Source: Bacteroidales bacterium UBA1733 | GTDB lineage: Bacteria; Bacteroidota; Bacteroidia; Bacteroidales; UBA3663 | DNA length: 14,962 nucleotides | NCBI GenBank assembly: GCA_002315795.1 | Contig: DCIF01000017.1 | Coordinates: 1,218-16,179, forward strand | Direction of reading: 5' to 3' | Part shown: one piece after another, positions 660-14,766 of the stretch | Layout of the letters: the number at the start of each line of letters is the position of its first letter | Numbering within the stretch: position 1 is the first letter of the stretch | The notes under the pieces: model-generated | Told to the model about the DNA's origin: nothing | Database searches by the model: none | What the model saw: only the letters and a program-made list of their open reading frames with translations | Translations under genes and position numbers: made by a program

Positions 660-965
660 ATGGTTAAGCATGTCATTCTCTGGACACTAAATCCAGAACT
701 CACCGAAGAGCAGAAGCAGGAGGTAAAGCAAGGTATCAAGGCCGGACTTGAAGGCCTCGTAGGTAAAGTCCCTGGCCTCATTGAGGTCATCGTCAATGTC
801 GATGGCCGACTGGCTTCGAGCAACTGCGACGTCATGCTCGATTCCACCCTCGAGAGCCCAGAGGCCCTCAAGGCCTATGCCACCCACCCTGAGCATGTCG
901 CCGTCGCCGATGGCAAGGTACGTCCTTACACCGTGCAGCGCACCTGTCTCGATTACGAATTCTAA
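660..965 (+). CDS. Dabb (stress-responsive A/B barrel) domain protein
   Basis: This 101-residue protein consists of a single Dabb domain, the dimeric alpha/beta-barrel ferredoxin-like fold. Visible hallmarks are the opening MVKHVILWTL strand, the helix TEEQKQEVKQGIKAGLEGL, the central VPGLIEVIVNVD strand, the S-x-x-x-C-D-V-M-L-D strand, and the late EALKAYATHPEHVAV segment with a conserved His. Length is normal for stand-alone Dabb proteins. Such proteins are cytoplasmic; some are stress-induced and a few act as small cyclases or decarboxylases, but no catalytic role can be assigned here. The ATG lies 3 nt after the preceding stop and there is no earlier in-frame start, so it is probably translated from the same message as its neighbour. 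The stop is followed directly by the palindromic repeat zone. Confidence 0.88.
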   Translation: MVKHVILWTLNPELTEEQKQEVKQGIKAGLEGLVGKVPGLIEVIVNVDGRLASSNCDVMLDSTLESPEALKAYATHPEHVAVADGKVRPYTVQRTCLDYEF

Positions 966-971
966 CGTCCC

Positions 972-1155
972 TTTCAAGGCCTTGAAAACCCCATTTGACT
1001 TTTCCGATGGAGCTTTCAAGGCCTTGAAAAGCTCTTCAGGAAATCCAAATGAAGCCTTCCAGGCCTTGAAAGGTTCTTCAGAAAATCCTAATGAGACTTT
1101 CAAGTATTTGGAAGGTATTTTCTGCATTTCAGAAGACCATTTCAAGAGGCTTCAG
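972..1155. repeat. Five-copy 42-bp-period repeat with palindromic core TTTCAAGGCCTTGAAA
   Basis: Copies of a 16-bp core begin at 972, 1014, 1056, 1098 and 1140, exactly 42 bp apart. The first two cores are the perfect palindrome TTTCAAGGCCTTGAAA. The third is CTTCCAGGCCTTGAAA, the fourth TTTCAAGTATTTGGAA and the fifth TTTCAAGAGGCTTCAG, so the array decays to the right. The 26-bp spacers are partly conserved: copies 2 and 3 share a TTCAG-AAATCC-AATGA pattern. Because the period is 14 codons, the array stays open in one plus-strand frame, reading F-K-A-L-K per unit. Because the core is its own complement, a minus-strand frame also reads F-K-A-L-K. Neither frame has a convincing start, so I treat the array as a non-coding repeat. 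The last copy runs 3 bp into the next palindrome. Confidence 0.85.
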
Positions 1156-1256
1156 CAGGGGTCTTTTCCAGGCTCTATATTCGTAATTCCAGGGACCCCC
1201 TTATAGGGGTCCCGAATTACCGGAATATAAAGGAGCCGGAGATAAGCCCCCTGCTG
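1153..1256. repeat. 104-bp imperfect palindrome, copy 1 of a tandem pair
   Basis: CAGCAGGGG (1153-1161) pairs with CCCCTGCTG (1248-1256). Further in, GGCTC (1171-1175) pairs with GAGCC, ATATTC (1177-1182) with GAATAT, GTAATTC (1183-1189) with GAATTAC, and GGGACCCC (1192-1199) with GGGGTCCC, closing on a CTTATA hexaloop. Small asymmetric internal loops separate the stems. The element could form a cruciform in DNA or a long hairpin in RNA, and could end transcription of the Dabb gene, although no U-tract follows the apical stem. The bases before it (CATTTC, then GAGGCTTCA) resemble the same position of copy 2. Confidence 0.88.
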
Positions 1257-1276
1257 TTTTCATTTCTATGAGGTTT

Positions 1277-1380
1277 CAATTAGGGGTAATTTTACACCCC
1301 AGTATTGATAATCATAGTAACCCCCTTATAGGGGTTACGATTATCGATAATACTGAGGGGGTTCCAAATACCCCTAATTG
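1277..1380. repeat. 104-bp imperfect palindrome, copy 2 of a tandem pair
   Basis: This element has the same length and plan as the palindrome 20 bp to its left but largely different stem bases. The outer stem is a perfect 12-bp pair: CAATTAGGGGTA (1277-1288) with TACCCCTAATTG (1369-1380). The middle stem pairs CAGTATT (1300-1306) with AATACTG. The next pairs ATAATC (1308-1313) with GATTAT. The apical stem GTAACCCC (1317-1324) pairs with GGGGTTAC around CTTATA. The 16 bases around the loop, ACCCCCTTATAGGGGT, are identical in both copies (1195-1210 and 1320-1335). The upstream flank CATTTC plus GAGGTTTCA (1261-1278) also matches that of copy 1, so the two are diverged tandem copies of about 120 bp. 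Confidence 0.88.
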
Positions 1381-1644
1381 GCTCTTTCGTGTATCAAATA
1401 TCGTTATTTTACTATTCAAATTCTAGTAGTAGATTCTAACAGCAGAGCGAAAAGATTTGTAAAATGGCTCTAAAACGCAATAGGAGCGTTTCTGAGCGCA
1501 CTTCTCCTATCGGATGGGTAATTGTTCATTCGAGTGAAGAAAGTGGCTCAGAAGAGAAAAAAACAATATGATGCACAATCTCCTCATGCAGACTGGCAGG
1601 CTCCACAGTCGGCAGGCAAAGGGAAGTGGCTCTCAGCAACGGTG
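1381..1644. other. Intergenic stretch without a recognised gene
   Basis: I see no convincing gene in this part of the gap between the palindromes and the antiporter promoter. All frames are short and lack a plausible start. The only structure I noticed is a weak inverted repeat, ATAGGAG and CTCCTAT, around 1480-1512 with a loop of about 17 nt. I do not assign it a role. Confidence 0.6.
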
Positions 1645-1659
1645 AAAAATGACATTTTT
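1645..1659. promoter_or_regulatory. Palindrome AAAAATG-A-CATTTTT just upstream of the antiporter promoter
   Basis: A perfect 7-bp inverted repeat with a single central base ends 9 bp before the -33 element of the antiporter promoter. Its position fits an operator or an upstream binding site, but it could also be a weak hairpin followed by a T-rich tract. No regulator can be named from sequence. Confidence 0.35.
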
Positions 1660-1668
1660 TGCTTTTTA

Positions 1669-1700
1669 TTTGGTTATTCGGAAAAATAATCATACCTTTG
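1669..1700 (+). promoter_or_regulatory. Bacteroidetes-type promoter of the antiporter gene
   Basis: TTTG at 1669-1672 and TACCTTTG at 1693-1700 match the Bacteroidetes housekeeping sigma consensus (TTTG at -33, TAnnTTTG at -7) with a 20-nt spacer, within the usual 19-21. Transcription would start near 1706-1708, giving a leader of about 22 nt before the ATG at 1730. No G-rich Shine-Dalgarno sequence is present, as is usual in this phylum. Confidence 0.8.
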
Positions 1701-1729
1701 TGGCTGGAAATGATTATAAATGATTCTCA

Positions 1730-3193
1730 ATGGCTTTATCTTTCACCTCTGGTAATTTTATGTTGGTCGGTGCCATCCTGATGATGGCTGGTGTGCTGAT
1801 TCAGAAACCTGGTTATCGCTATGGGTTGCCGGCTTTGCTCTTGTTCCTGGTTGTGGGTATGCTCTTCGGCAGTGACGGTCTGGGATTGGAGTTCGACGAC
1901 GTGGAGAGTGCTCAGCTCATCGGTATGGTGGGGCTTTCAGTCATCCTGTTCTCTGGTGGCCTGAACACGAAGATCAGGGATATACAACCGGTATTAGGGC
2001 CAGGTCTGGTGTTGAGTACATTCGGCGTGCTGCTGACTACGCTGTTCACGGGTTTCTTTGTCTGGTGGATCTCTGGCTTCTCATGGACTACGATTCACTT
2101 CGCGCTACTTCCGTCGATCCTGTTGGCTTCTACGATGTCAAGTACCGACTCGGCTTCGGTCTTCGGTATTCTGGGTACGCAGAAGATGGGTCTGAAGCAT
2201 CATCTCAGGCCGATCCTGGAACTTGAGTCTGGCTCTAACGATCCGATGGCCTATCTGATTACGGTGATGCTGGTGGCTGTTCTCTCTACGGGTGAGAACC
2301 TGTCGGTCATGCATCTGGTCAAGACGCTGATCGTGCAGCTGTCTGTGGGTTCAATGCTTGGTTTTGGCTTCGGAAAGGCGGGTACGTGGATGATCAATCA
2401 TCTGCGCCTCGATAATCGTGCGCTCTATCCGATACTCCTCGTTTCGGTCTGCTTCCTCACTTTCGCCATGACCGATACGATAGGAGGCAATGGCTATCTG
2501 GCTATCTATGTGGCTGGTATCGTCATTGGCAACAGCGAGTTGAGTTACCGACGCGAGACGATCACATTTATCGATGGTCTGTCCTGGCTGTCGCAGATCG
2601 TGATGTTCCTGATGCTGGGTCTGCTGGTCAATCCGAAAGAGATGTTCGGCATGGCTGGTATGGCTTTGCTTATCGGTGTGTTTATGATCCTGGTGGGCCG
2701 TCCTTTGGCCGTCTTCCTGTGTCTGATACCGTTTAAGGAGATTCCGTTCCGTGCAAAGGTCTTTACCTCATGGGTAGGCCTGCGTGGTGCTGTACCTATC
2801 CTGTTTGCTACCTATCCGGTGGTTGCTGGTCTGGAGGATCATCACACCATCTTTAATATCGTCTTCTTTATCACGATCCTGTCACTGTTGCTGCAGGGTA
2901 CGACCATTACTTTCTTTGCTCATAAACTCGGTCTGGCAGAGCCTTTGGCCAACGATGTGTCTGATTTCGGTGTCGAACTGCCTGAAGATATTGATTCGAA
3001 TCTGACCGAAATTGATGTCACGCCTGAGTTACTGGCACATGGCAATACGCTTCGTGACTTGCGCCTGCCTGCCGGTAAGCTGGTCATGATGGTGAAGCGT
3101 GGCGACGAACTCCTGATTCCTAACGGCACGTATCGGATGCAGGAGGGTGACCGTCTGCTGGTGATCTCTAATAACACCACCGATTCCATCTGA
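1730..3193 (+). CDS. K+/H+ antiporter, CvrA/NhaP2 family (CPA1) with TrkA-C domain
   Basis: A 487-residue inner-membrane antiporter that exchanges monovalent cations, probably K+, for protons; in this family it serves ion and volume balance. Residues about 8-395 form a run of hydrophobic segments. Family motifs are visible: FSGGLNTK (74-81), the SSTDSASVFGIL block (137-148) and LELESGSNDPMAYL (163-176), which carries the acidic residues of the ion-binding core. GLRGAVPI lies in a later helix. A soluble tail of about 70 residues (roughly 418-484, ending GDRLLVISN) is a TrkA-C/RCK_C regulatory domain expected to bind a ligand such as a nucleotide. Length is typical and nothing is missing. The gene has its own promoter and appears monocistronic. 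CvrA/NhaP2 is preferred over Kef because of the TrkA-C tail without a TrkA-N domain. The exact cation cannot be read from sequence. Confidence 0.92.
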   Translation: MALSFTSGNFMLVGAILMMAGVLIQKPGYRYGLPALLLFLVVGMLFGSDGLGLEFDDVESAQLIGMVGLSVILFSGGLNTKIRDIQPVLGPGLVLSTFGVLLTTLFTGFFVWWISGFSWTTIHFALLPSILLASTMSSTDSASVFGILGTQKMGLKHHLRPILELESGSNDPMAYLITVMLVAVLSTGENLSVMHLVKTLIVQLSVGSMLGFGFGKAGTWMINHLRLDNRALYPILLVSVCFLTFAMTDTIGGNGYLAIYVAGIVIGNSELSYRRETITFIDGLSWLSQIVMFLMLGLLVNPKEMFGMAGMALLIGVFMILVGRPLAVFLCLIPFKEIPFRAKVFTSWVGLRGAVPILFATYPVVAGLEDHHTIFNIVFFITILSLLLQGTTITFFAHKLGLAEPLANDVSDFGVELPEDIDSNLTEIDVTPELLAHGNTLRDLRLPAGKLVMMVKRGDELLIPNGTYRMQEGDRLLVISNNTTDSI

Positions 3194-3258
3194 AGCAGTG
3201 AATGATGAAGAATAATGTCCTTGCAATAGAGCCGTCAATGTGATAAAAACAATACCTT

Positions 3259-3576
3259 ATGAAATGTAAACTGATTTGTGCAATAGCCATTCTTTTACTG
3301 GCAATGAATGCTGAGGCTCAGCGAAAGCAGAGTTTTGAAACGGGATGGAAATTCCATCGCAATGGTGTGATTAACGCAGAGTTGCCCGATTGCGATGACT
3401 CCAAATGGCGCGATGTGACTCTTCCCCATGACTTCAGCATCGAGCCTTCGATGACAATCACTGATGGCAGAACTGACTCGGAAGGATGGGACGCCGTACA
3501 GGTGGGCCCTTTCACAAGACTGAACCTTGGTAACTCAGATCAGGGACACCTGCCTAGAAACTCTCGCCACTGGTGA
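3259..3576 (+). pseudogene. Truncated GH2 beta-galactosidase, N-terminal remnant
   Basis: The start is intact: a signal peptide of about 21 residues (MKCKLICAIAILLLAMNAEA, then Q) is followed by the N-terminal jelly-roll typical of secreted Bacteroidales GH2 glycosidases, with SFETGWKFHRNG, DDSKWRDVTLPHDFSIE and VGPFTRLNLGNSDQGH. Normal GH2 enzymes run 700-1100 residues; this frame stops at codon 106, just where the GGxGWYRK segment is expected. No later frame in the gap restores it, and the catalytic TIM-barrel with its glutamates is absent. No function is expected. The break near 3545-3560 lies just upstream of the defence operon, so it may mark the edge of an insertion or deletion. The last residues (LPRNSRHW) are probably not native. 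Confidence 0.82.
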
Positions 3577-3636
3577 GACAAATCAGTTGGACGGTAACTC
3601 CTAATTGCCAAATTTAAAAACGAGACCGCAACAATA

Positions 3637-5397
3637 ATGAATAAATTCACCATACAGCAGCTCCAACAGATGCGAGAATCCGAAGACCGTGTTGAGTTCA
3701 AGGCGGGCGAAGGTGGCAACGTTTCCTACGATGGTCGTGGCAAGACCAACCCGAAGGATCGTCGCCGTTGCATACTTGGCTATGTCATCGCCCTCTGCAA
3801 TGAAGGTGGCGGTCGACTTGTGATTGGTATGCACGATAACTATCCACATCGCGTCACCGGTACTCGCCAGGAGCAAGATGCCATCGGACAGTTGGAGTCG
3901 GACATCTATCGTGACACAACGATTCGTCCTGAGATATACGAACTCTATGACGAAGAGAATCGTCGTGTATTGGTGATTGAGGTGCCTTCACGTCCTATTG
4001 GTAAAGTTTTCAAGTTTGAGGATGTGCCATTGATGCGTGTCGGCGAAGAACTCAAGCCAATGTCCGATGCCATGTATCTCAAGATATTGCAGGAGTCAGA
4101 ACCAGACTTCTCGGAAAAGATTTGTGAAGGCCTTACCCTTGAAGATCTTGACGAAGAGGCAATCCGTGTGATGAAGCAAGGATATGCGCAGCGTTGGAAC
4201 AAGCCTGAGTTTGATAGCACACCTACGTTGCAGGTTCTCCATGACTTTGCCCTCATGAATAAAGACGGGCAGTTGACCAATGCCGCCCTCATCCTTCTTG
4301 GAAAGTCGGAGGCAATCCGAAAACATCTGTATTGCAACCGTGTGACCGTTGAGTATCGTCTCTATCACTCCATGATTGAATACACGGCACGTCAGGAGTT
4401 CCAGCAGCCATTGGTACTGATGGTAGATTCTGTATGGAACTATATTAACCAACCTGCCAGTAACCCATTGCAGCACTACAATGACGGCTTCCGCATTGGT
4501 GACATTCCTACATTCAATCGTGATGTTGTGCGAGAAGCTATCCTCAATGCTTGTTGTCATCGTGTGATGTACATCCAGAGTGATGTTGTTATCAAGCAGT
4601 ACCCAGACCAACTCGTCATCACCAATGCCGGTGGTTTCCCTGTTGGCGTTGATGTTGACAATATACTTACGGTCAATAGCATGCCTCGTTGCAAACTCAT
4701 CACAGAGGTATTGCAGAAGGCTGGCTTCATCGAGAAGAGCGGACAAGGCGTTGATAAGATGTTCTATCATTGCCTGTTGGATGGCAAACGTCTGCCAGAT
4801 TATTCGTTGACTGACGATTGGCAGGTATGCCTGCGTCTTCCTGGCGAAATCAAGTACCCTGCCTTCATGCTCTATGCTCGTGAGCTGCAGAATGCTCGAC
4901 CAGCAAACAACAAGCTCAACGTATTTGATCTCCTTGCTCTCTTCCGTGCTTCGCAAGGAGAAAGTCAGCGGCATACTGACGAGGTGACATTACACAAACT
5001 CACAACAGAAGGATTGCTCATCTCGGCACAAGACGGCTACAAGTTGTCTGACAGGTATTATGAGATTGCCAAAAATGTTGGAACTGTCGAAAATCCTCAG
5101 AATAATGACACAATAAATGTCCCTGTAAATGATACTGCAAAATTATCACAACTGACTGAAAGACAATGCAAGATTTACGATAAAATAAAAAATGTCCAGT
5201 CAAATATCCAGTCAAATGTCCAAGTAAATGTCCAAGTAAATGTCCAAGTAAATATCCAAGTAAACATTCCTGATTTAGCAACAATGTTTAATGTGTCAGA
5301 GAAGACCATCAGACGTGATTTATATGCCCTCCGTGATTTGAACCTCATTAAATATGTAGGCAGTGATAAGACTGGTCATTGGGAAGTGATTAACTAA
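3637..5397 (+). CDS. AlbA_2 (Schlafen-type) / HATPase_c_4 / winged-helix putative regulator
   Basis: A 586-residue protein of the COG2865 type. Residues about 15-140 form the AlbA_2/Schlafen-like domain, with the opening E-D-R-V-E-F-K, then CNEGGGRLVIGMHD and the VLVIEVPS strand. Residues about 290-400 match the GHKL-type ATPase fold (HATPase_c_4): REAILNACCHR from Arg299 holds the N-box Asn, and a later IEKSGQGVDKM supplies a glycine turn. The last 45 residues are a winged helix (DLATMFNVSEKTIRRDLYALRDLNLI). A low-complexity Asn-Val-Gln linker (519-542) joins the two. The family is usually called transcriptional regulator or nucleic-acid-binding protein, and some members occur in defence loci. 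Its stop lies 10 nt before jetA, same strand, so it probably shares the Wadjet transcript as regulator or accessory. An in-frame TAA at 3595-3597 limits the start. Activity is unproven. Confidence 0.85.
   Translation: MNKFTIQQLQQMRESEDRVEFKAGEGGNVSYDGRGKTNPKDRRRCILGYVIALCNEGGGRLVIGMHDNYPHRVTGTRQEQDAIGQLESDIYRDTTIRPEIYELYDEENRRVLVIEVPSRPIGKVFKFEDVPLMRVGEELKPMSDAMYLKILQESEPDFSEKICEGLTLEDLDEEAIRVMKQGYAQRWNKPEFDSTPTLQVLHDFALMNKDGQLTNAALILLGKSEAIRKHLYCNRVTVEYRLYHSMIEYTARQEFQQPLVLMVDSVWNYINQPASNPLQHYNDGFRIGDIPTFNRDVVREAILNACCHRVMYIQSDVVIKQYPDQLVITNAGGFPVGVDVDNILTVNSMPRCKLITEVLQKAGFIEKSGQGVDKMFYHCLLDGKRLPDYSLTDDWQVCLRLPGEIKYPAFMLYARELQNARPANNKLNVFDLLALFRASQGESQRHTDEVTLHKLTTEGLLISAQDGYKLSDRYYEIAKNVGTVENPQNNDTINVPVNDTAKLSQLTERQCKIYDKIKNVQSNIQSNVQVNVQVNVQVNIQVNIPDLATMFNVSEKTIRRDLYALRDLNLIKYVGSDKTGHWEVIN
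5191..5262 (+). repeat. Six 12-bp tandem repeats inside the AlbA_2 gene
   Basis: Six consecutive 12-bp units, AATGTCCAAGTA or close variants (AATATCCAGTCA and similar), encode N-[VI]-Q-[SV] four residues at a time, residues 519-542. Three units in a row (5215-5250) are identical. A related lone unit, AATGTCCCTGTA, sits at 5117-5128. Since 12 is a multiple of three, gain or loss of units would change linker length without a frameshift. Confidence 0.93.
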
Positions 5398-5407
5398 CAA
5401 ATGTAGC

Positions 5408-6631
5408 ATGGATACCATTTCACATTTCCATTCGTTGGAGGAACTGATACGCGCCTTGGATAGGGAGCGGAGGTTGCTGCATGCGTTGTTTCAGGACAGG
5501 AAGAGGTTGTCGTTCAGATATGACTTGGCACGGGAGGTGGCGAGCAAGAAGGATGAGAGTCTGGAGTTCCTGAGGCGGTATGGGGTGATCAGGGAGAATG
5601 CGGATTTTGTGGAGCTGGAGGATGTGTATCTGAAGTTCTTCGAGGATGTGCTGGAGGTGAATGAGGAGATCAATGTGGCGAGTGTGAAGGAGAGCATCGG
5701 CAACCTGAACAATGCCATTGAGTACTACCTGAGCGAGAATAATCCGAGCAGGAAGTACGGGTATCTGAGGGATGTGAAGAGGATACTGAGGAACATCGCT
5801 TTGACGACTCTGAGGAATGTGATTGACCTGAAGAGGAATATCGACAATACGTACAAGAACGAGCCTACTTTTGCCATCAAGAAGAAGAAACTGGTGCATC
5901 TGGATGAGAAGCGAAGGGATATTGCGGCATTGATAAACGAGTGCGAGAGGGTGATTGATGAGAAGCAGTCGACATTCTTCATGGTGGCGATGGATGTGCA
6001 GCTGAAGGACATTGTGACGGATGTGAAACTGCAGTTGAGGGAGGTGTATCACAACCTGCTGGAGTTGGATAGGCAGATTATCAATTACTTGAATTTGATA
6101 GAATACCAGAGCCGTTTGTTGGAGAAGGTGCAGAAGCTGAAGTATCTGAGGGATCAGTTGTTGTTGGACACGAATACAGACGTGAGGGCGAAGCTGTCGG
6201 TAAAGAATCCAGTGTGGATGGAACCTCGTCCGAGATATACGTTGAAGGTATCGCTCTCGATGCTGAGGAATTCGGATGAAGGACTGAAGATTCTGCAGGA
6301 ACTGGCAAAGGGAAAGAAGAACAACCGACTAAGAAAAGGCAATCTTGCAGAACCATTGACAGAAGACGAGCTGACGGAGAAGAAGCAGGTGCTGCAGACG
6401 GTGGATATCAGCGAAGTGAAGAATGCGTTCATGGCTTCGGGCGACAATCTGTTCCACTTTGTGATGAACTATTCGGGTTATCACATTCCGATGGACAATG
6501 AAGCAAAACTGGTGCTGTTCTGCCAGATTGCCACACAGTATCTGGACGAGTTGAATGTGAGTGAGGAGTATCGCTCCTTCGATAACATTGAATACCCAAT
6601 CATCTATCCCCATAACCTCACAACCTCATAA
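5408..6631 (+). CDS. jetA: Wadjet protein JetA (putative kleisin, MksF-like)
   Basis: A 407-residue, mostly alpha-helical protein. In Wadjet complexes JetA is the kleisin-like subunit that bridges the two JetC heads and carries JetB. The N-terminal part (about 1-95) looks like a winged-helix region (HALFQDRKRLSFRYDLA, then RRYGVIRENADFVELEDVYL). It is followed by long amphipathic helices with many charged residues, as in MukF/MksF relatives. I see no catalytic motif, and the assignment depends strongly on context: it is the first of four genes in the order expected for jetABCD, with the ATPase and Toprim genes downstream. The start at 5408 lies 10 nt after the previous stop; the ATG at 5401 reads directly into a stop. 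The gene is unusually rich in G-ending codons (GAG, GTG, CTG, AGG), which leaves long shadow frames on the other strand. Confidence 0.8.
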   Translation: MDTISHFHSLEELIRALDRERRLLHALFQDRKRLSFRYDLAREVASKKDESLEFLRRYGVIRENADFVELEDVYLKFFEDVLEVNEEINVASVKESIGNLNNAIEYYLSENNPSRKYGYLRDVKRILRNIALTTLRNVIDLKRNIDNTYKNEPTFAIKKKKLVHLDEKRRDIAALINECERVIDEKQSTFFMVAMDVQLKDIVTDVKLQLREVYHNLLELDRQIINYLNLIEYQSRLLEKVQKLKYLRDQLLLDTNTDVRAKLSVKNPVWMEPRPRYTLKVSLSMLRNSDEGLKILQELAKGKKNNRLRKGNLAEPLTEDELTEKKQVLQTVDISEVKNAFMASGDNLFHFVMNYSGYHIPMDNEAKLVLFCQIATQYLDELNVSEEYRSFDNIEYPIIYPHNLTTS

Positions 6632-6639
6632 CCCAATTT

Positions 6640-7179
6640 ATGCGCTATACAAAGGAAATATTCGACATACTAAGCAAAGGTGGATTCATCTCGCAGAACT
6701 CCATCTCGCAGCAACGTGCACATCTGTATGATGCCATTGAGGATGATTTTCAGGACTATCAGGAGTACTATCGTGGGATAGGTTTCCTGCTGGAGGGAGG
6801 CAATGGCTACTATTATTTTTCAAGAACGGAGAGCAAGGTGGATCTGGCGGATAAGATTCAGCGTCTGGCTTTGTGGATAGACAGACTGGATTTTCTGAAG
6901 ACCTTCAACAATACCTTTGGTTCGGGATTTACGTTCAGGAAATCGAATGTCCTGGAGAAATTCTCGAGTGATATCGAACTGAAGGAAAAGGTCCGCGGAC
7001 TCTATCAGGACGTTAAAACGAACGAGGAGAAGATAGAAAAACTGATAAACGACATGGAGCGCCAGGGCTTTGTGGAACTTGAGAACGAGTTAGACGGAAC
7101 GTACAAGGTGACGGCAGCCTTCCACTATATCGAGGAACTCATTGATTGTCTTACCATAATTGATACGAACGAAGCATGA
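6640..7179 (+). CDS. jetB: Wadjet protein JetB (putative KITE subunit, MksE-like)
   Basis: A 179-residue protein between the presumed kleisin and the SMC-like gene, the expected place and size for JetB, the KITE (kleisin-interacting tandem winged-helix) subunit. The N-terminal half has helix-turn-helix-like segments (TKEIFDILSKGGFISQ) and a beta-wing-like GGNGYYYFSR. The C-terminal half has a second winged-helix-like unit (INDMERQGFVELENELDGTYKVTAAFHYIEELI). JetB binds JetA and helps assemble the loop-extruding motor. The start lies 8 nt after the jetA stop, and the gene ends in an ATGA overlap with jetC (7176-7179), indicating coupled translation. Sequence similarity among JetB proteins is low, so the call relies on order, size and the neighbouring ATPase. 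Confidence 0.8.
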   Translation: MRYTKEIFDILSKGGFISQNSISQQRAHLYDAIEDDFQDYQEYYRGIGFLLEGGNGYYYFSRTESKVDLADKIQRLALWIDRLDFLKTFNNTFGSGFTFRKSNVLEKFSSDIELKEKVRGLYQDVKTNEEKIEKLINDMERQGFVELENELDGTYKVTAAFHYIEELIDCLTIIDTNEA

Positions 7180-10100
7180 GAGCACTTAGGAAGATAGTTT
7201 TTGTGAACAGTGCCAACATCCGTTATGCCGAGGTGAGGCTGGATGGTAATGTGCATTTCATTGGTACGCAGGGTGTGGGCAAGAGCACTTTGTTGAGGGC
7301 TATTTTGTTCTTCTATAATGCCGACAAACTGCACTTAGGCATTCCTAAGGAGATGAAGTCGTTTGACGAGTTTTATCTGCCTCATGCCAATTCGTACATC
7401 GTCTATGAGGTGGAGCACGAGCATGGACCTTTCTCGATTATCACCTTCCGTTCGTCGGGAAGAGCATGCTACAGGTTTGTGGATGCACCATACGACAAGC
7501 GCTGGCTGGTGGATGAAAGAGGAGAGGTGACTGCCGAGGGTAAGGTGATTCGTGAGCGATTGGGTGGCGTGTATATGAGCAAGATTATCGACCGATACGA
7601 GCAGTATCGCGACATATTGTATGGCAACCGTCAGGCAGTGGGCAAGGAGTTTGCACGCTTCCAGTTGCTTGAGACCAACCGCTATCAGAATATTCCGAGA
7701 AGCATACAGAATGTGTTCCTCAATTCGAGGTTGGATGCCAACTTCATCAAGGACATCATCATCCGTTCGATGAGCGATGAGGAGGCGAATATCGACCTTG
7801 GGTATTTCCGCAGACAGGTGGCTGATTTTGAGCAGGAGTACAAGGATATCTCGTGCTGGTATAAGCTGAATCAGAAGGGCGAGTCGATGGTGAGGAAGCA
7901 GGCTGATGCTGTGGTGACAGCTTACCACGAACTGCTGTATATGCGGCAGCAGATAACGGATTTGTGTGGTGAGTTGAAGTATTCCGAAAGGGTGTCGCGC
8001 GAGAAGTTGCCTTTGCTTGAAGCAAAGATAACGGAACTGACTGAGGAACTGGAGACGCAGAAGCGACTACTGACGGAACTGCAGCAGAAATATGATGCTG
8101 AGAAGTCAACGCTCAATCAAGAGCAGGGTGTGGTAAATGCCAATCTGAAGCGACTGAAGGAGCGCAAGGAGTATTATGCCACTCAGCAGATAGAAAGCGT
8201 GATGCAGAGATGCAGCAAGGAAGCGGCATTGAAGGTGGAGTTGGAGAATCTGAAGGAAAGGCTGCAGGAGTTGACGGCTCAGTTCAATGACGTGACGAGC
8301 AAGTTTAAGGCTCTCTATCAGAATATTCAGAACCGGTTGGAGGCATTCCGTCAGGTGCAGAAGGAGCGCATACTCCAGGCAGGAGCTGAAAAGCAGAAGA
8401 GAGGCGAACGACTCTTGCAGGAATACAACACGCAGAAGACAGAAACGGAAGAGGCATTTGCAGAGAAGATAGCTTGTGCTCTTGGACGTATTGATGCGTT
8501 GAAGACGGAGCAGTCGGATGTGGAGAAGGAGTTGTTGAAACTGAAGTATCTGGAGCCTTATAAAGAGGAGAAGGAGGCTTTGCAGAAGCAGTTGAATGAG
8601 TTACAACTGAAGGAAAAGGAACTTCAGGGAACGGTTGGTACTCTTGGTTCAGAAATCAGTCGTGTGCAAGCAGAATATGACAAACGTGAGGCTGAGGTAA
8701 AGGCGGAATACAAGCTGCAGTTGGATGAGAAGCAGAAAGATATTGATGGGCTCGTTCAGCAGATAGCAGATATTGACCGTTTGCTTGAGCGAACTAAGGG
8801 TTCTTTGTATGAGTGGCTGGAGGATAACAAGAAGGATTGGGAGCATAATATAGGTAAGGTAATCAACGAGGAGAAGGTGCTTTACCAGACAGGTCTGCAT
8901 CCACAGAAAACGGATGGCAGTTCGTTGTTTGGAGTAAAGTTAGATTTGACGGATCTGCCTCTGAATGTAAGGAAGCCAAAACAACTTCAGAAGGAGAAGT
9001 CGGCTCTGGAGAAGCAACTCAAAAAGCTTAAAGATGAGAGATTAGTGCTTATAGATGAGCAGACAGAGACTATTGAAGACTTGAAACGACGATACAGTCC
9101 TAAGATGAAGGAATTGCGTCAGCAGAAGTCGATGGCAGAGACAGAACTTGGGATGATTCCTCAAAGGCGGAAGTCGCTAATCGTGAAGGTTGAGGAGTTT
9201 GAGGCAAAGGCGAAGCTGGTTATAGAGGAACGTCACAACGAATTGATTGTTCGTCAGCAGGATGTAGCTCACAGAATGACGTCTGCCAATGCAGAACAGG
9301 AGAAGTTACTGGCAGACAAACAGAAGCAGTTGAAGCGTGTAGAGAAGCAGTATGCAGATGGTAAAGTTGAGGCAGAAAGGCACTACATGCAGCAGGTGGC
9401 TGACGTGAATGCAGAAACGAAAGTTCGAGAGCAGGAGACGGAGAATGAGATACAGACGTTGAAGCGGCAGGAGGCAGACGAACTGAAAGGTCGTGGTGCA
9501 GATGTAGCTCTTGTGAATGACTGCAAGGCTAAGATTAAGGCGACGGAAGATGAACTCAGATATATTGAGGAGCATCGCAAGTTAGTGTATGATTATCAGC
9601 GTGACAAAGAGGAGTTGTTTGACAATGAGGAGTCGCTGAAGAACCAGAAGAAGACGATTGCTGACAAGTTGCAGCAGTTGGGTGAGAAGTATGCTCAAAG
9701 AAGGCAGAAGCATGACCTGCAGGTGGCATGTATTGGTAAGGAGTTGGGCGAGCGAAGGGATGAGCAGAAGCGTATTCAGGACGACCTTCAGAAGGCAGAA
9801 CGCTTTGCACATGACGAGAATCTTTGTCCACCGATGCTTGCAGATGCCCGTGAGAAACAGACACTTCGCACCCCGGGACAGGCTGTGGATGAGTTGACAG
9901 GTATTATCGTTTCACGTCAATCGCGCCAGAACCAGTTTAAGCAGAGTGTGAATGTGTTCAAGGGTAATTTCTCGGTGAAGAATACCTTCAATTTCCGCAT
10001 GAAACTGACGTTGGACGAGGACTATCTTGACTTTGCCAACAATCTGGACGACTTCCTCATCAACAATAAACTGGAGGAGTATCGTCGCAGAACGAGCGAG

Positions 10101-10823
10101 AGGTATGTGGACATTCTTGCACGAGTGTCGAAGGAGATGGGTGAACTGACCCGCCATGAGTCGGATGTGGATAAGATAATCCATGACATCAACAGCGACT
10201 TCAAGGAGAGGAATTTCGTGGGAGTGATAAAACTCATTGCCTTGCAGTCGGTGGCTTCGGCAGACAAGATGGTGCAGCTGATGAAACGCATCAAGGAGTT
10301 CAATGATGAGAATCAGTTTGCTATGGGCGAGTTGAATCTGTTCTCGTCAACTAACCGTGATGAGGTGAACCAGAAGGCTGTGGGGCATCTGCTGGACTTC
10401 ATGAAGTCGCTGGTGGACAATCCTCAGAGGCAGTATCTCACTCTCTCGGATTTGTTCCAGTTGCAGTTCCGCATTGTGGAGAATGATAACGATACGGGTT
10501 GGGCAGACAAGCTGTCGCATGTGGGTAGCGAAGGAACGGACACCTTGGTGAAGGCAATGATAAACATCATGCTGATCAATGTGTTCAAGGAGAAAGTAAG
10601 CCGGAGGTTTGGCGACTTCCGCATCCATTGTATGATGGACGAGATAGGAAAGCTCCATCCGCAGAACATCAAGGGGATCCTTGATTTCGCCAACGCTCGT
10701 AACATCCTGCTTATTAACTCTTCGCCAACAACATATAATGTGACGGATTACCGATACACTTACCTGTTGAGTAAGGATAGTAATTCGAAGACTGTTGTTC
10801 ACCCACTTATCTCTCAGCAATAA
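7176..10823 (+). CDS. jetC: Wadjet protein JetC (SMC/MukB-like ATPase)
   Basis: A 1215-residue SMC-like ATPase, the motor of Wadjet, which extrudes DNA loops and lets the complex recognise small circular plasmids. Walker A is GTQGVGKST at 30-38. Long coiled coils run from about 240 to 540 and 610 to 900, with heptad-rich Glu/Lys/Gln/Leu sequence. Between them lies a compact non-coiled segment (about 540-610, from EWLEDNKKDW to LFGVKLDLTDLPL) that fits the short hinge of MukB/JetC proteins. The C-terminal head has a signature-like GSEGTDTLVKAM (from Gly1117) and Walker B HCMMDEIG, with Asp1155 and catalytic Glu1156, followed by ILLINSSP. All ATPase motifs look intact, so the protein should be active. 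It overlaps jetB by 4 nt and touches jetD through TAATG. General SMC or SbcC is less likely given the neighbours. Confidence 0.93.
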   Translation: MRALRKIVFVNSANIRYAEVRLDGNVHFIGTQGVGKSTLLRAILFFYNADKLHLGIPKEMKSFDEFYLPHANSYIVYEVEHEHGPFSIITFRSSGRACYRFVDAPYDKRWLVDERGEVTAEGKVIRERLGGVYMSKIIDRYEQYRDILYGNRQAVGKEFARFQLLETNRYQNIPRSIQNVFLNSRLDANFIKDIIIRSMSDEEANIDLGYFRRQVADFEQEYKDISCWYKLNQKGESMVRKQADAVVTAYHELLYMRQQITDLCGELKYSERVSREKLPLLEAKITELTEELETQKRLLTELQQKYDAEKSTLNQEQGVVNANLKRLKERKEYYATQQIESVMQRCSKEAALKVELENLKERLQELTAQFNDVTSKFKALYQNIQNRLEAFRQVQKERILQAGAEKQKRGERLLQEYNTQKTETEEAFAEKIACALGRIDALKTEQSDVEKELLKLKYLEPYKEEKEALQKQLNELQLKEKELQGTVGTLGSEISRVQAEYDKREAEVKAEYKLQLDEKQKDIDGLVQQIADIDRLLERTKGSLYEWLEDNKKDWEHNIGKVINEEKVLYQTGLHPQKTDGSSLFGVKLDLTDLPLNVRKPKQLQKEKSALEKQLKKLKDERLVLIDEQTETIEDLKRRYSPKMKELRQQKSMAETELGMIPQRRKSLIVKVEEFEAKAKLVIEERHNELIVRQQDVAHRMTSANAEQEKLLADKQKQLKRVEKQYADGKVEAERHYMQQVADVNAETKVREQETENEIQTLKRQEADELKGRGADVALVNDCKAKIKATEDELRYIEEHRKLVYDYQRDKEELFDNEESLKNQKKTIADKLQQLGEKYAQRRQKHDLQVACIGKELGERRDEQKRIQDDLQKAERFAHDENLCPPMLADAREKQTLRTPGQAVDELTGIIVSRQSRQNQFKQSVNVFKGNFSVKNTFNFRMKLTLDEDYLDFANNLDDFLINNKLEEYRRRTSERYVDILARVSKEMGELTRHESDVDKIIHDINSDFKERNFVGVIKLIALQSVASADKMVQLMKRIKEFNDENQFAMGELNLFSSTNRDEVNQKAVGHLLDFMKSLVDNPQRQYLTLSDLFQLQFRIVENDNDTGWADKLSHVGSEGTDTLVKAMINIMLINVFKEKVSRRFGDFRIHCMMDEIGKLHPQNIKGILDFANARNILLINSSPTTYNVTDYRYTYLLSKDSNSKTVVHPLISQQ

Positions 10824-11731
10824 TGAACATTACCGTTGCACTCATAGACAAGCTCCTTCGTCTCAGGAATGGCGAGAGTCTTCCATCCAGTAGCCTCCGT
10901 GGTGAATGGGTGGAGGAACTGTTGCGTGAAGGAGTGTTGGTAAGTCGATCACATGGAAGCAGACGAGTGCTGATGGCATCTTCTGGTGCTTCTCTTGAGC
11001 AAGCATTGGCATCCGTTGACGAACGTCTTGGGGATTTGGAGAGAATGAGTAGTCTGCTTACCGATGAAGCCTCTCGTGCTACTATGGCTTCGGTAACGGG
11101 TAATTCGAAGTTGGTTGCTGTTCGCTCGTGTCCAGGGTTTATGGTGAATAGTTACGAGCTTATTCCTTGCAAACTGAATGGTAGTGACTTTGTGGTTAAT
11201 CCTGTAGAAGGAAGCATGGTGTTTGTGGCAGATTGGGAGCGTTTTGAGATACCAGAAGACGTGATTGTAGTGGGTATCGAAAACATGGAGAACTTCAGAA
11301 AGATTAGGCAGCAGAGAGCATTTTTTGAGAAGGAGATAGATTGTCGTTATGGTTGTGAGGACTCACATTCAAAACTGCTTTTTGTCTCCCGCTATCCACA
11401 ATCCACAGACCTGCGCCAATGGCTATCACGCATCTCCAACCGTTACGTTCATTTCGGAGACTTTGACTTGGCCGGAATCCATATCTTCCTCACTGAATTT
11501 CATCAGTATTTAGACGACAGAGCATCCTTCCTGATACCTTCCGATATTGAAGAACGTCTGCAAAATGGTTCAACAGAGAGATATTACAATCAATATGCCC
11601 GTTTCAAGGAACTGCACTCAAATGTTGTAGAGGTGCAATCGCTTATTGACATGATTAACAAATATAGAAGGGGATATGATCAGGAGGGATATATATACTG
11701 CTTGATATTGTTGGATGAGAATAACAGTTAA
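10823..11731 (+). CDS. jetD: Wadjet protein JetD (Toprim-domain nuclease subunit)
   Basis: A 302-residue protein whose C-terminal half carries a Toprim-type core: VVVGIENMENF with the conserved Glu (about 153), and HFGDFDLAGIHIF with the D-x-D pair (Asp213, Asp215). These residues bind divalent metal for DNA cleavage. In Wadjet, JetD cuts plasmid DNA once the SMC motor has extruded it. The N-terminal part (1-95) looks like a winged-helix module (LLRLRNGESLPSSSL, then WVEELLREGVLV) followed by a short helical arm, the expected arm domain of JetD. The protein is somewhat short compared with JetD proteins of other subtypes, mainly in the N-terminal part, but the catalytic core seems complete. 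The start overlaps the jetC stop (TAATG), so translation is coupled. Confidence 0.9.
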   Translation: MNITVALIDKLLRLRNGESLPSSSLRGEWVEELLREGVLVSRSHGSRRVLMASSGASLEQALASVDERLGDLERMSSLLTDEASRATMASVTGNSKLVAVRSCPGFMVNSYELIPCKLNGSDFVVNPVEGSMVFVADWERFEIPEDVIVVGIENMENFRKIRQQRAFFEKEIDCRYGCEDSHSKLLFVSRYPQSTDLRQWLSRISNRYVHFGDFDLAGIHIFLTEFHQYLDDRASFLIPSDIEERLQNGSTERYYNQYARFKELHSNVVEVQSLIDMINKYRRGYDQEGYIYCLILLDENNS

Positions 11732-13335: not shown

Positions 13336-14766
13336 CTAATAGCCTTTGCTCTTTTTGAGTTTATTGCCAGGATAGTGCCTGGCGTGAGCGTATTGCATAG
13401 CACGCCAAGCCCAGTGAAGAGGGTCTTCGTCCTTGTCTCGCCAAGGCATGTCGCTTGTCGTACCGCCAACACCAGAGACTTGTGCGACACCAGTAGCACC
13501 ATCCATACCGGCAAGGAAGACTCGGCGTCCAGTCTCTAATACATCATTCCAACGCTGAAAGTTGCGATCATCAATGAAGGTGTCTTCTGCTAACGCGGTA
13601 GCATCTTGAGACTCACGACAAATTCTTGCTGCATCAGTCAACACTTGATCCAAGATAGATGCTTTGAGCATGATGGAAACATGGTGATTGAGATAGTTCG
13701 TTATCAACTTGTCTGACTCTATAGCATCGTTCACCATCTCTATCCGTGAATCATAGGTATCCTTCAGATTGTCTATTTCTTGATTGACCGTGTTCAGCTT
13801 GTTATGCTTCTCTTCCAGCTTCTCATTGACAGTTGCAAGTTTCATGTGAAGTGCGAAGATCTCCTGTGCAATTTGTGCTTTATCGGAATCAGATTTCTGA
13901 AGTTGAGCTTCAAGTTTTGCAATCTCAGCCTCAATATCTTTCTGCTGACGAGTAAGATTCTCGATCATGGTAGTGAGACCTTTGACGGCATTACGTTTAG
14001 TCGAGAGTTCTTCTTCAAGAGATTTGTTCTCACGGTGAAGTTCACGGTTATGCTCTTCGAGCGACTTGTGACGTGCACCAGTCTCATGAATATCATCACC
14101 ACGCTCAAGTCCCCACTTTGCATTGACGGCGGCATACCAGTCATGCCATTCTTTCATTTTACCGCGTGCGGCATCTATTGATCCTCCGCCAAACATGTCC
14201 TTTGCTGATAATCGACCATCCTCTAAGATAGGGGTAATGGTAGCATGGAGATGGCAACCTTTCTCATCACAGTGTACGATGAAGGAAATGATGTTCTTCT
14301 CACCGATACGTTTTGCAAGAGCTTTGTAATTGTCGAGAGCGAACTGTTCAATCTCAGGCATACGCCTGATGTGAGCATTGTGTTCTCGTTCCTGAAGTTC
14401 CTGATTACCGAATGCAAGTTCATTCATACGCTCACTATTTCCTCCCATGACAAGACAAACAGAGAGGTGCTGAGTGCTTCGAACTTTCGGTTCCACACCA
14501 GTTACTGCAAGTCTTTCTGCTTTCCATTCGGCAATACGTGCATCTACTTTTTCTTTGATGCAAACATATTTGTCGACAGGAGCTATGACGCCTCCCTTAC
14601 GTATTTCAAAGTTGAGATGTTCTCGACTTGGATCATAATTTCTTTCGGGATCATCAAGTTTACACTCCCATTGTGACTGATCCCATTTGCGCTGATGTTC
14701 TGCGCTTAGTGCTGGAGTCATCTTCATCTTTGTGATTTCCAGCATTGCTTTTTTACCTGTAGCCAT
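13336..14766 (-). CDS. MobV-family relaxase (Mob_Pre)
   Basis: A 476-residue mobilization relaxase that nicks one strand at oriT and stays bound to the DNA end to start conjugative transfer of small plasmids or mobilizable elements. The catalytic domain is residues 1 to about 225. Motif I has AEHQRK with His24 in the place of the catalytic His of the pMV158 relaxase MobM, followed by YDPSREHLNFE (44-54). The metal-binding motif is HCDEKGCHLH (165-174), then TPILEDGRLSAKDMF as in MobM. Residues about 235-345 form a coiled coil, and the tail is basic (NKLKKSKGY). All motifs look intact. The gene converges on the plus-strand cassette and shares the hairpin between them. It carries no transfer pore genes, so it would need a helper conjugative element. 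A coupled replication gene is not in the window. Confidence 0.93.
   Translation of the reverse strand: MATGKKAMLEITKMKMTPALSAEHQRKWDQSQWECKLDDPERNYDPSREHLNFEIRKGGVIAPVDKYVCIKEKVDARIAEWKAERLAVTGVEPKVRSTQHLSVCLVMGGNSERMNELAFGNQELQEREHNAHIRRMPEIEQFALDNYKALAKRIGEKNIISFIVHCDEKGCHLHATITPILEDGRLSAKDMFGGGSIDAARGKMKEWHDWYAAVNAKWGLERGDDIHETGARHKSLEEHNRELHRENKSLEEELSTKRNAVKGLTTMIENLTRQQKDIEAEIAKLEAQLQKSDSDKAQIAQEIFALHMKLATVNEKLEEKHNKLNTVNQEIDNLKDTYDSRIEMVNDAIESDKLITNYLNHHVSIMLKASILDQVLTDAARICRESQDATALAEDTFIDDRNFQRWNDVLETGRRVFLAGMDGATGVAQVSGVGGTTSDMPWRDKDEDPLHWAWRAMQYAHARHYPGNKLKKSKGY

Follow-up and report, generated by a model that had tools for sequence, protein, structure and literature searches.

Two tandem 104-nt stem-loops between ordinary chromosomal genes share the tip of hairpins found behind phage replication genes: possible orphaned replication start sites

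The 764-bp gap between a Dabb-domain protein gene and a Na+/H+ exchanger gene in this Bacteroidales DNA contains two large palindromes, E1 and E2, lying side by side and 188 bp beyond the Dabb stop codon. What kind of element are they, if they are an element at all? We examined the whole stretch of 14,962 nucleotides (the window) and the relatives of its palindromes elsewhere. As the tip shared by E1 and E2 matches that of hairpins located directly behind phage replication genes, they may be orphaned phage-type replication start sites, a tentative reading to which we give a probability of roughly 0.38.

Structure and divergence of E1 and E2

A sequence-only reading had described two tandem palindromes of exactly 104 nt with a common fold plan. 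Folding bore out the positions and the lengths (Table 1), and also the plan: in each element a CTTATA loop is followed by an 8-bp apical stem, a bulge, a middle stem and an outer stem. The bulge sits on the 5' arm (2 nt in E1, 3 nt in E2), the middle stem is 7 bp in both, and the outer stem is 9 bp in E1 and 12 bp in E2. With a few flanking bases (111 nt each), the RNA folds have energies of -62.2 kcal/mol (E1) and -51.6 kcal/mol (E2) and 43 and 39 pairs in total; RNA folding is strong on both strands. The DNA values in Table 1 are for the bare 104 nt. None of the shuffled sequences folded as well as E1 or E2 and, when the 14,962 bases were folded in 110-nt segments at 10-nt steps, the five segments of lowest energy all overlapped one or the other. 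Both hairpins are real.

Table 1. Positions of the palindromes, their parts and their neighbours in the window
Feature	Position	Strand	Remarks
E1, 104-nt interrupted palindrome (stem-loop)	1153..1256		RNA fold z -9.1, DNA fold z -7.8
E2, 104-nt interrupted palindrome, diverged tandem copy of E1	1277..1380		RNA fold z -8.8, DNA fold z -7.8; 73/96 identity
E1 tip, ACCCC-CTTATA-GGGGT	1195..1210	+	exact match to phage hairpin tip
E2 tip, 16-mer identical to E1 tip	1320..1335	+	exact match to phage hairpin tip
E1 outer stem, CAGCAGGGG	1153..1161		paired with 1248-1256
E2 outer stem, CAATTAGGGGTA	1277..1288		paired with 1369-1380
Duplicated ~124-bp unit, first copy (flank CATTTC..GAGGCTTCA and E1)	1138..1261		ends by eye
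Duplicated ~124-bp unit, second copy (flank CATTTC..GAGGTTTCA and E2)	1262..1385		ends by eye
Dabb-domain protein gene, upstream neighbour	660..965	+	
Na+/H+ exchanger with TrkA-C (potassium/proton antiporter), downstream neighbour	1730..3193	+	
42-bp tandem repeats	958..1139		units at 972, 1014, 1056, 1098

That the two are diverged tandem copies, as had been proposed, is supported by the 73 identical bases among 96 aligned globally and by the flank CATTTC...GAGGYTTCA common to both elements, whose starts are 124 bp apart. Not one of 500 hairpin-preserving shuffles of E2 reached the E1-E2 alignment score, with the tip either fixed or free. The tip itself, the 16-mer ACCCCCTTATAGGGGT, occurs twice in the window where 0.03 occurrences are expected (up to three mismatches allowed). 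Since tip and flank are both shared, we treat E1 and E2 as copies of a unit of ~124 bp.

The pairing was compared in a hand-made structural alignment of 30 stem pairs (8 apical, 7 middle, 6 second middle and 9 outer), which left out 13 of the 43 E1 pairs and 9 of the 39 E2 pairs of the RNA folds and which took the second middle stem of E2 in the register of the DNA fold, different there from the RNA fold. In this alignment 21 pairs are unchanged, nine are changed on both sides, and none is changed on one side or broken. The 18 changed stem positions make up nine complete pairs; 200,000 random placements gave at most eight double changes, with a mean of 2.6. A MAFFT alignment made without regard to structure puts the helices out of register: just 12 pairs coincide, and 12 of 43 pairs (E1) and 14 of 38 comparable pairs (E2) then appear broken. 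The sequence-only reading had most paired bases differing between the copies, which is wrong given that 21 of the 30 comparable pairs are identical. Its claim that pairing is kept while sequence changes does hold in the hand-fitted alignment (9 of 30 double changes, none broken). Its attribution of this to selection does not follow from two copies, where arm-to-arm correction of a palindrome explains the kept pairing as well as selection does.

It is here that the chief rival to an origin reading arises. E1 and E2 may be functionless local palindromes of a repeat-rich intergenic region, in which slippage made the hairpins and correction between the arms, by template switching across a cruciform, keeps them complementary. 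Double changes without single ones are also expected from such correction. E1 lies at the degenerate end of the 42-bp array, a degenerate fifth unit at 1140 running into it, and is itself tandemly duplicated; E1 and E2 would then share a tip because each copies the other. There are also only these two copies: no other was found in the window, even with three tip mismatches allowed, or by the limited searches outside it.

The CTTATA tip in viral contigs

The tip of E1 and E2 matches a class of phage hairpins, C4-(C)TTATA-G4, and E1 and E2 both carry CCCC-CTTATA-GGGG on a long interrupted stem, as expected of that class. In IMG/VR, the 14-mer CCCCCTTATAGGGG is present in at least 120 stretches and the full 16-mer in 21. 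At least two further contiguous Watson-Crick pairs extend the 16-mer in 17 of these 21, with arms that vary between families; E1 and E2 have three each. Neither a changed loop (CATTTA, 0/8) nor a reversed loop (ATATTC, 0/5) showed two or more further pairs. When stretches were collapsed to families, the tip scored 11/14 against 0/6 for the two changed loops (Fisher p 0.002), the 13 control stretches amounting to six families, with the loop-reversed control a single family whose own fold has 19 loop-spanning pairs. Scored more loosely, by a fold with at least 15 such pairs, 10/14 test and 2/6 control families passed (p 0.16), and the fold energies of test and control families differed modestly (p 0.04). 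As the looser measure fails to separate the controls, the tip test is supportive, not strong. A replication-family gene was found at none of the 13 control loci.

We then considered the genes beside 143 loci with the 14-mer (at least 120, 8 and 15 from three scans), counting as long any hairpin with at least 15 loop-spanning pairs. Among the matches listed, a gene of the AAA_25/Prim-Pol family (RepA-like or Prim-Pol) lay within 500 bp of 50 of 99 long hairpins, a class resting on the kind of measure that left the controls unseparated, with a neighbour family whose HMM was both built and iterated on these loci; the corresponding counts were 0 of 36 short and 1 of 8 intermediate hairpins. In 48 of 51 gene-hairpin pairs among the matches listed, the hairpin is at the 3' end of the replication gene: 28-105 bp past it in 39, 194-408 bp past it in four, and just inside the end of the reading frame in five. 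Of these 48 hairpins, 36 have CTTATA on the strand opposite to the gene and 12 on the gene's own strand. Pfam identified AAA_25 (RecA/RepA-type ATPase) in all ten neighbours tested and also at locus L035, and some of these proteins carry Prim-Pol, PriCT-1 or PriCT-2 domains as well. The 48 adjoining replication genes among the matches listed fall into 8 clusters at 30% identity and 20 at 50%, and thus represent more than one phage lineage.

The association is not exclusive. Among the matches listed, neither kind of gene, replication or terminase, lies within 500 bp of 40 of the 99 long viral hairpins (10 of these 40 being less than 400 bp from the end of a contig), and 9 of the 99 are near a terminase small-subunit gene; the tip is therefore not confined to replication modules. 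Counting hairpins of every length among the matches listed, there are 30 loci (e.g. L117, L059 and L022) at which the 14-mer lies no more than 500 bp from a terminase small-subunit gene, on its 5' side; several of these loci have an adjoining G-run/C-run. These terminase genes form one cluster at 50% identity, and 19 of the 30 loci have short hairpins. The 14-mer is possibly a packaging or regulatory site there.

Loci fetched by protein similarity were read around the gene stop, from -120 to +280. Because the query proteins came from hairpin-bearing contigs, this test gauges how common the tip is among their relatives. The first helicase alignment (A1) was too diverse for scanning, so two closer sets were used: A2 (80 of 253 loci kept, 75 long enough) and A5 (80 of 95 kept, 77 long enough). 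The tip, or a TATA or TTTA variant, was found near the gene stop in 72 of 75 A2 loci and in 29 of 77 A5 loci. The A2 loci comprise 41 with the exact 14-mer (at least nine of them on contigs already known from the motif scans), one TATA variant, 30 with the C-run/TTTA/G-run form and three with none. The A5 loci comprise six with the exact 14-mer (at least four on known contigs), eight TATA variants, 15 of the TTTA form and 48 with none of these tips, several of which have other strong hairpins near the stop. In the control stretch 1,000-1,400 nt before the stop, neither set had the tip or its variants. In a phages collection, 103 records matched and 13 loci with related helicases or Prim-Pols were read; all 13 lack the CTTATA tip. 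They are six annotated phages (of Arthrobacter, Cellulophaga, Flavobacterium, Olleya and Microbacterium) and seven unannotated human fecal records. One of the fecal records has CCC-ATTTAT-GGG ~1.3 kb past its helicase/Prim-Pol match.

The tandem arrangement has one viral counterpart, as the tandem-tip pattern matched viral contigs only at L031. This AT-rich phage contig has three C4/G4-tip hairpins in a row (8396-8610) with the loops CTAAA, TTATA and TTATAG and different arms; they occupy a gap between genes, and no gene of the replication family was detected nearby. None of 177 viral hairpins is a clear match to the arms of E1 and E2 in sequence; the best local score, 25.5 (mean 15.9, sd 2.1; E1-E2 scores 29.5; all raw scores), is that of one L031 hairpin against E2. 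By one measure, viral hairpins span a median of 48 (quartiles 39-85; n = 33, chosen out of 48 loci) against 116 for E1 and 125 for E2.

Relatives in cellular genomes and known stem-loop origins

Further copies had been predicted in Prevotella or Bacteroides genomes and, where this could be tested, none appeared. A single scan of genome contigs with the strict pattern GGGG-N16-46-CCCCCTTATAGGGG-N16-46-CCCC returned 22 stretches, none titled Bacteroidota and one titled merely 'uncultured bacterium'; this absence holds for the exact tip on an outer stem of G4/C4. Using blastn, positions 900-1700 matched no plasmid, and among phages gave two weak 33-base matches to Rhizobium phage, both to the 42-bp repeats. 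CCCTTATAGGG was absent from two Prevotellaceae plasmids searched end to end. The neighbouring antiporter was no better guide: a protein scan of genome contigs gave 16 pattern stretches with none confirmed, six genomes reached through strict-pattern loci all lacked the antiporter, and a search in the phylum of one genome (G002) found a weak match in 1 of 39 genomes, 38 of which are at most 1.1 Mb. Antiporter loci of Bacteroides, Phocaeicola and Parabacteroides had no comparable hairpin within 300-700 bp upstream.

Two of the 22 genome-contig pattern loci also carry a replication-family gene on their stretch. At L130, the hairpin is ~590 bp past the main replication-gene match; counted from a second match, which is weak, the distance is 434 bp. 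At the other, L139, a cellular genome contig of Rubellimicrobium, the CTTATA hairpin (within 1622-3715) lies 75 bp past a Prim-Pol/AAA_25-family gene.

The sequence-only reading knew of no named element of this form. That stands in part: the form resembles a stem-loop origin described for the Sulfolobus plasmid pRN1 (PMC4234260), and the tip matches the phage hairpin class. In the published account, pRN1 replication needs a ~100-nt stem-loop located 54 bp past the Prim-Pol gene orf904 (PMC4234260), the stem-loop structure is kept among its relatives while the sequence is not conserved (PMC4234260, Berkner et al. 2014), and phage BIP-1 also has a stem-loop 3' of its replication gene (PMC4234260). 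As described there, the likeness is twofold: E1 and E2 are interrupted stem-loops of ~100 nt whose structure is conserved and sequence variable (between two copies, in the hand alignment), and the phage hairpins are placed just 3' of a Prim-Pol gene. There are also differences. When folded, the 104-nt region of pRN1 has an outer stem of 22 bp and lacks the CTTATA loop; pRN1 has an SF3 helicase (PMC4234260); and, unlike the pRN1 origin, E1 and E2 have no replication protein gene beside them.

Other published accounts describe related sites. The RSF1010 primase RepB' recognises the hairpins ssiA and ssiB (PMC4434180), which are exposed by RepA (PMC4234260); compared by description, ssiA and ssiB are 40-nt sites, one per strand, whereas E1 and E2 are in tandem on one strand. 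The Prim-Pol of NrS-1 is described as having short recognition sites (PMC7102993, PMC8718748), and mobile elements are known to carry fusions of primases to RepA-type helicases (PMC5862659). By analogy, the phage hairpins appear to fit this pRN1/RSF1010/NrS-1 kind of replication site. As far as our searches go, work on these three systems provides the only recognised precedents in the literature searched, in which we found no description of a CTTATA tip common across helicase clusters. The Prevotella intermedia/nigrescens repeat PINSR is likewise intergenic (188 bp) and judged non-coding but, compared by its published description, differs in having 177-184 copies and no terminal inverted repeats (PMC4755523).

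Possible origins of E1 and E2 and their setting

On our preferred reading, E1 and E2 would be a tandemly duplicated pair of DNA stem-loops of the origin type, left as orphans amid chromosomal genes. Elements of their kind would provide an origin or a site for priming to replication modules of the RepA-like/primase type, as carried by phages and small plasmids. The stem, a C-run paired with a G-run and capped by an A/T loop, may extrude as a cruciform or form where the DNA is single-stranded; an AAA_25 (RepA) ring helicase and a primase would load at the stem-loop, and synthesis would start from the exposed loop or the base of the stem. The stem sequence would be free to change as long as pairing holds. 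We take the RepA of RSF1010 to be of the AAA_25 kind. The folds of E1 and E2, their common descent, their kept pairing (between two copies, in the hand alignment), their exact tip and the position of such hairpins in phages directly after replication genes are observed. Three further steps are inferred: that the phage hairpins are origins, that E1 and E2 functionally belong with them, and that E1 and E2 derive from such an element.

The setting counts against this reading, as the neighbours of E1 and E2 are ordinary genes. No AAA_25/Prim-Pol gene or remnant was found in the 15-kb window (lowest E 0.53; a second HMM for the remnant search was built on 18 chosen of the 80 A5 loci, with stop-containing loci dropped), which places E1 and E2 outside the phage class as judged by its replication neighbour. 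If the orphaned-origin reading is nonetheless true, one short hairpin tip would flag where replication probably starts in several lineages of phage. Metagenomic phage origins could then be predicted from sequence, and priming from hairpins by RepA/Prim-Pol modules would be open to direct test. Orphan chromosomal copies would in turn show origin capture and possible use as decoys or satellite elements.

The local palindromes set out above, which would make E1 and E2 functionless, are a possible though somewhat doubtful account: they leave unexplained why an exact 6-nt loop with C4/G4 recurs behind the replication genes of several phage lineages.

Next among the rivals, and unlikely in our estimation, is a role in RNA or termination. 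E1 and E2 could be extended 3'-UTR hairpins, bidirectional terminators or RNA stabilisers in the Dabb-antiporter gap, or a structured small RNA, consistent with their intergenic position shortly past the Dabb stop, with the strong RNA fold on both strands and with the three similar intergenic hairpins of L031, which have no detected replication-family gene. Against this, a scan for Rho-independent terminators (a GC stem followed by a T-run) found no such site at E1 or E2, both of which are longer than ordinary terminators are generally known to be, and no Rfam family came near its threshold. The 14 Rfam matches were all far below gathering scores: 13 lie in the repeats upstream of E1 or just reach it, and the remaining one, RUF1, crosses part of E1/E2 with 17.9 bits against a threshold of 70.

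In Lactococcus, plasmid-borne phage origins are known to titrate phage replication. It is conceivable, if quite improbable, that E1 and E2 were captured as a pair of phage-type origins and continue to bind the replication proteins of phages, whether as a decoy titrating the RepA/primase of an infecting phage or as the minimal cis-element by which a satellite has its locus amplified by phage. Least probable is a non-autonomous mobile palindrome of the MITE or REP kind, for although E1 and E2 are palindromic, intergenic and present in two copies, these are tandem rather than dispersed within the window, no further copy with up to three tip mismatches was found there, and no target duplication or known REP tag was noticed by eye. 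Integron attC sites, IS200/IS605 ends and DnaA boxes were also considered and dropped on general knowledge.

Several other features of the window were recorded. The core of the 42-bp repeat, TTTCAAGGCCTTGAAA, is perfectly palindromic in units one and two, and the array is open in frame on both strands with 14-residue units. The antiporter shares 60% identity with a protein of Bacteroides finegoldii. Beyond it lies a short secreted-type ORF (3259-3576), apparently truncated, with a glycoside-hydrolase-like start by eye and no Pfam match. A four-gene operon (5408-11731) resembles the Wadjet (Jet) anti-plasmid system: Pfam finds the second gene MksE-like and the third DUF3584 SMC-like, and PADLOC gives weak matches of the third gene to JetC and the fourth to JetD. 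Adjoining this operon is an SLFN_AlbA_2 ATPase gene (3637-5397), in which an in-frame 12-bp tandem repeat (5190-5264; 6.2 copies) encodes a VQVN-type run. A MobV relaxase gene follows the defence genes on the minus strand (13336-14766), its best-ranked plasmid match being from Segatella hominis (37%). Together with that of the antiporter, this match suggests that the Bacteroidales DNA is probably from Prevotellaceae. The truncated ORF, the defence genes and the relaxase are possibly a mobilizable island inserted beside the antiporter gene.
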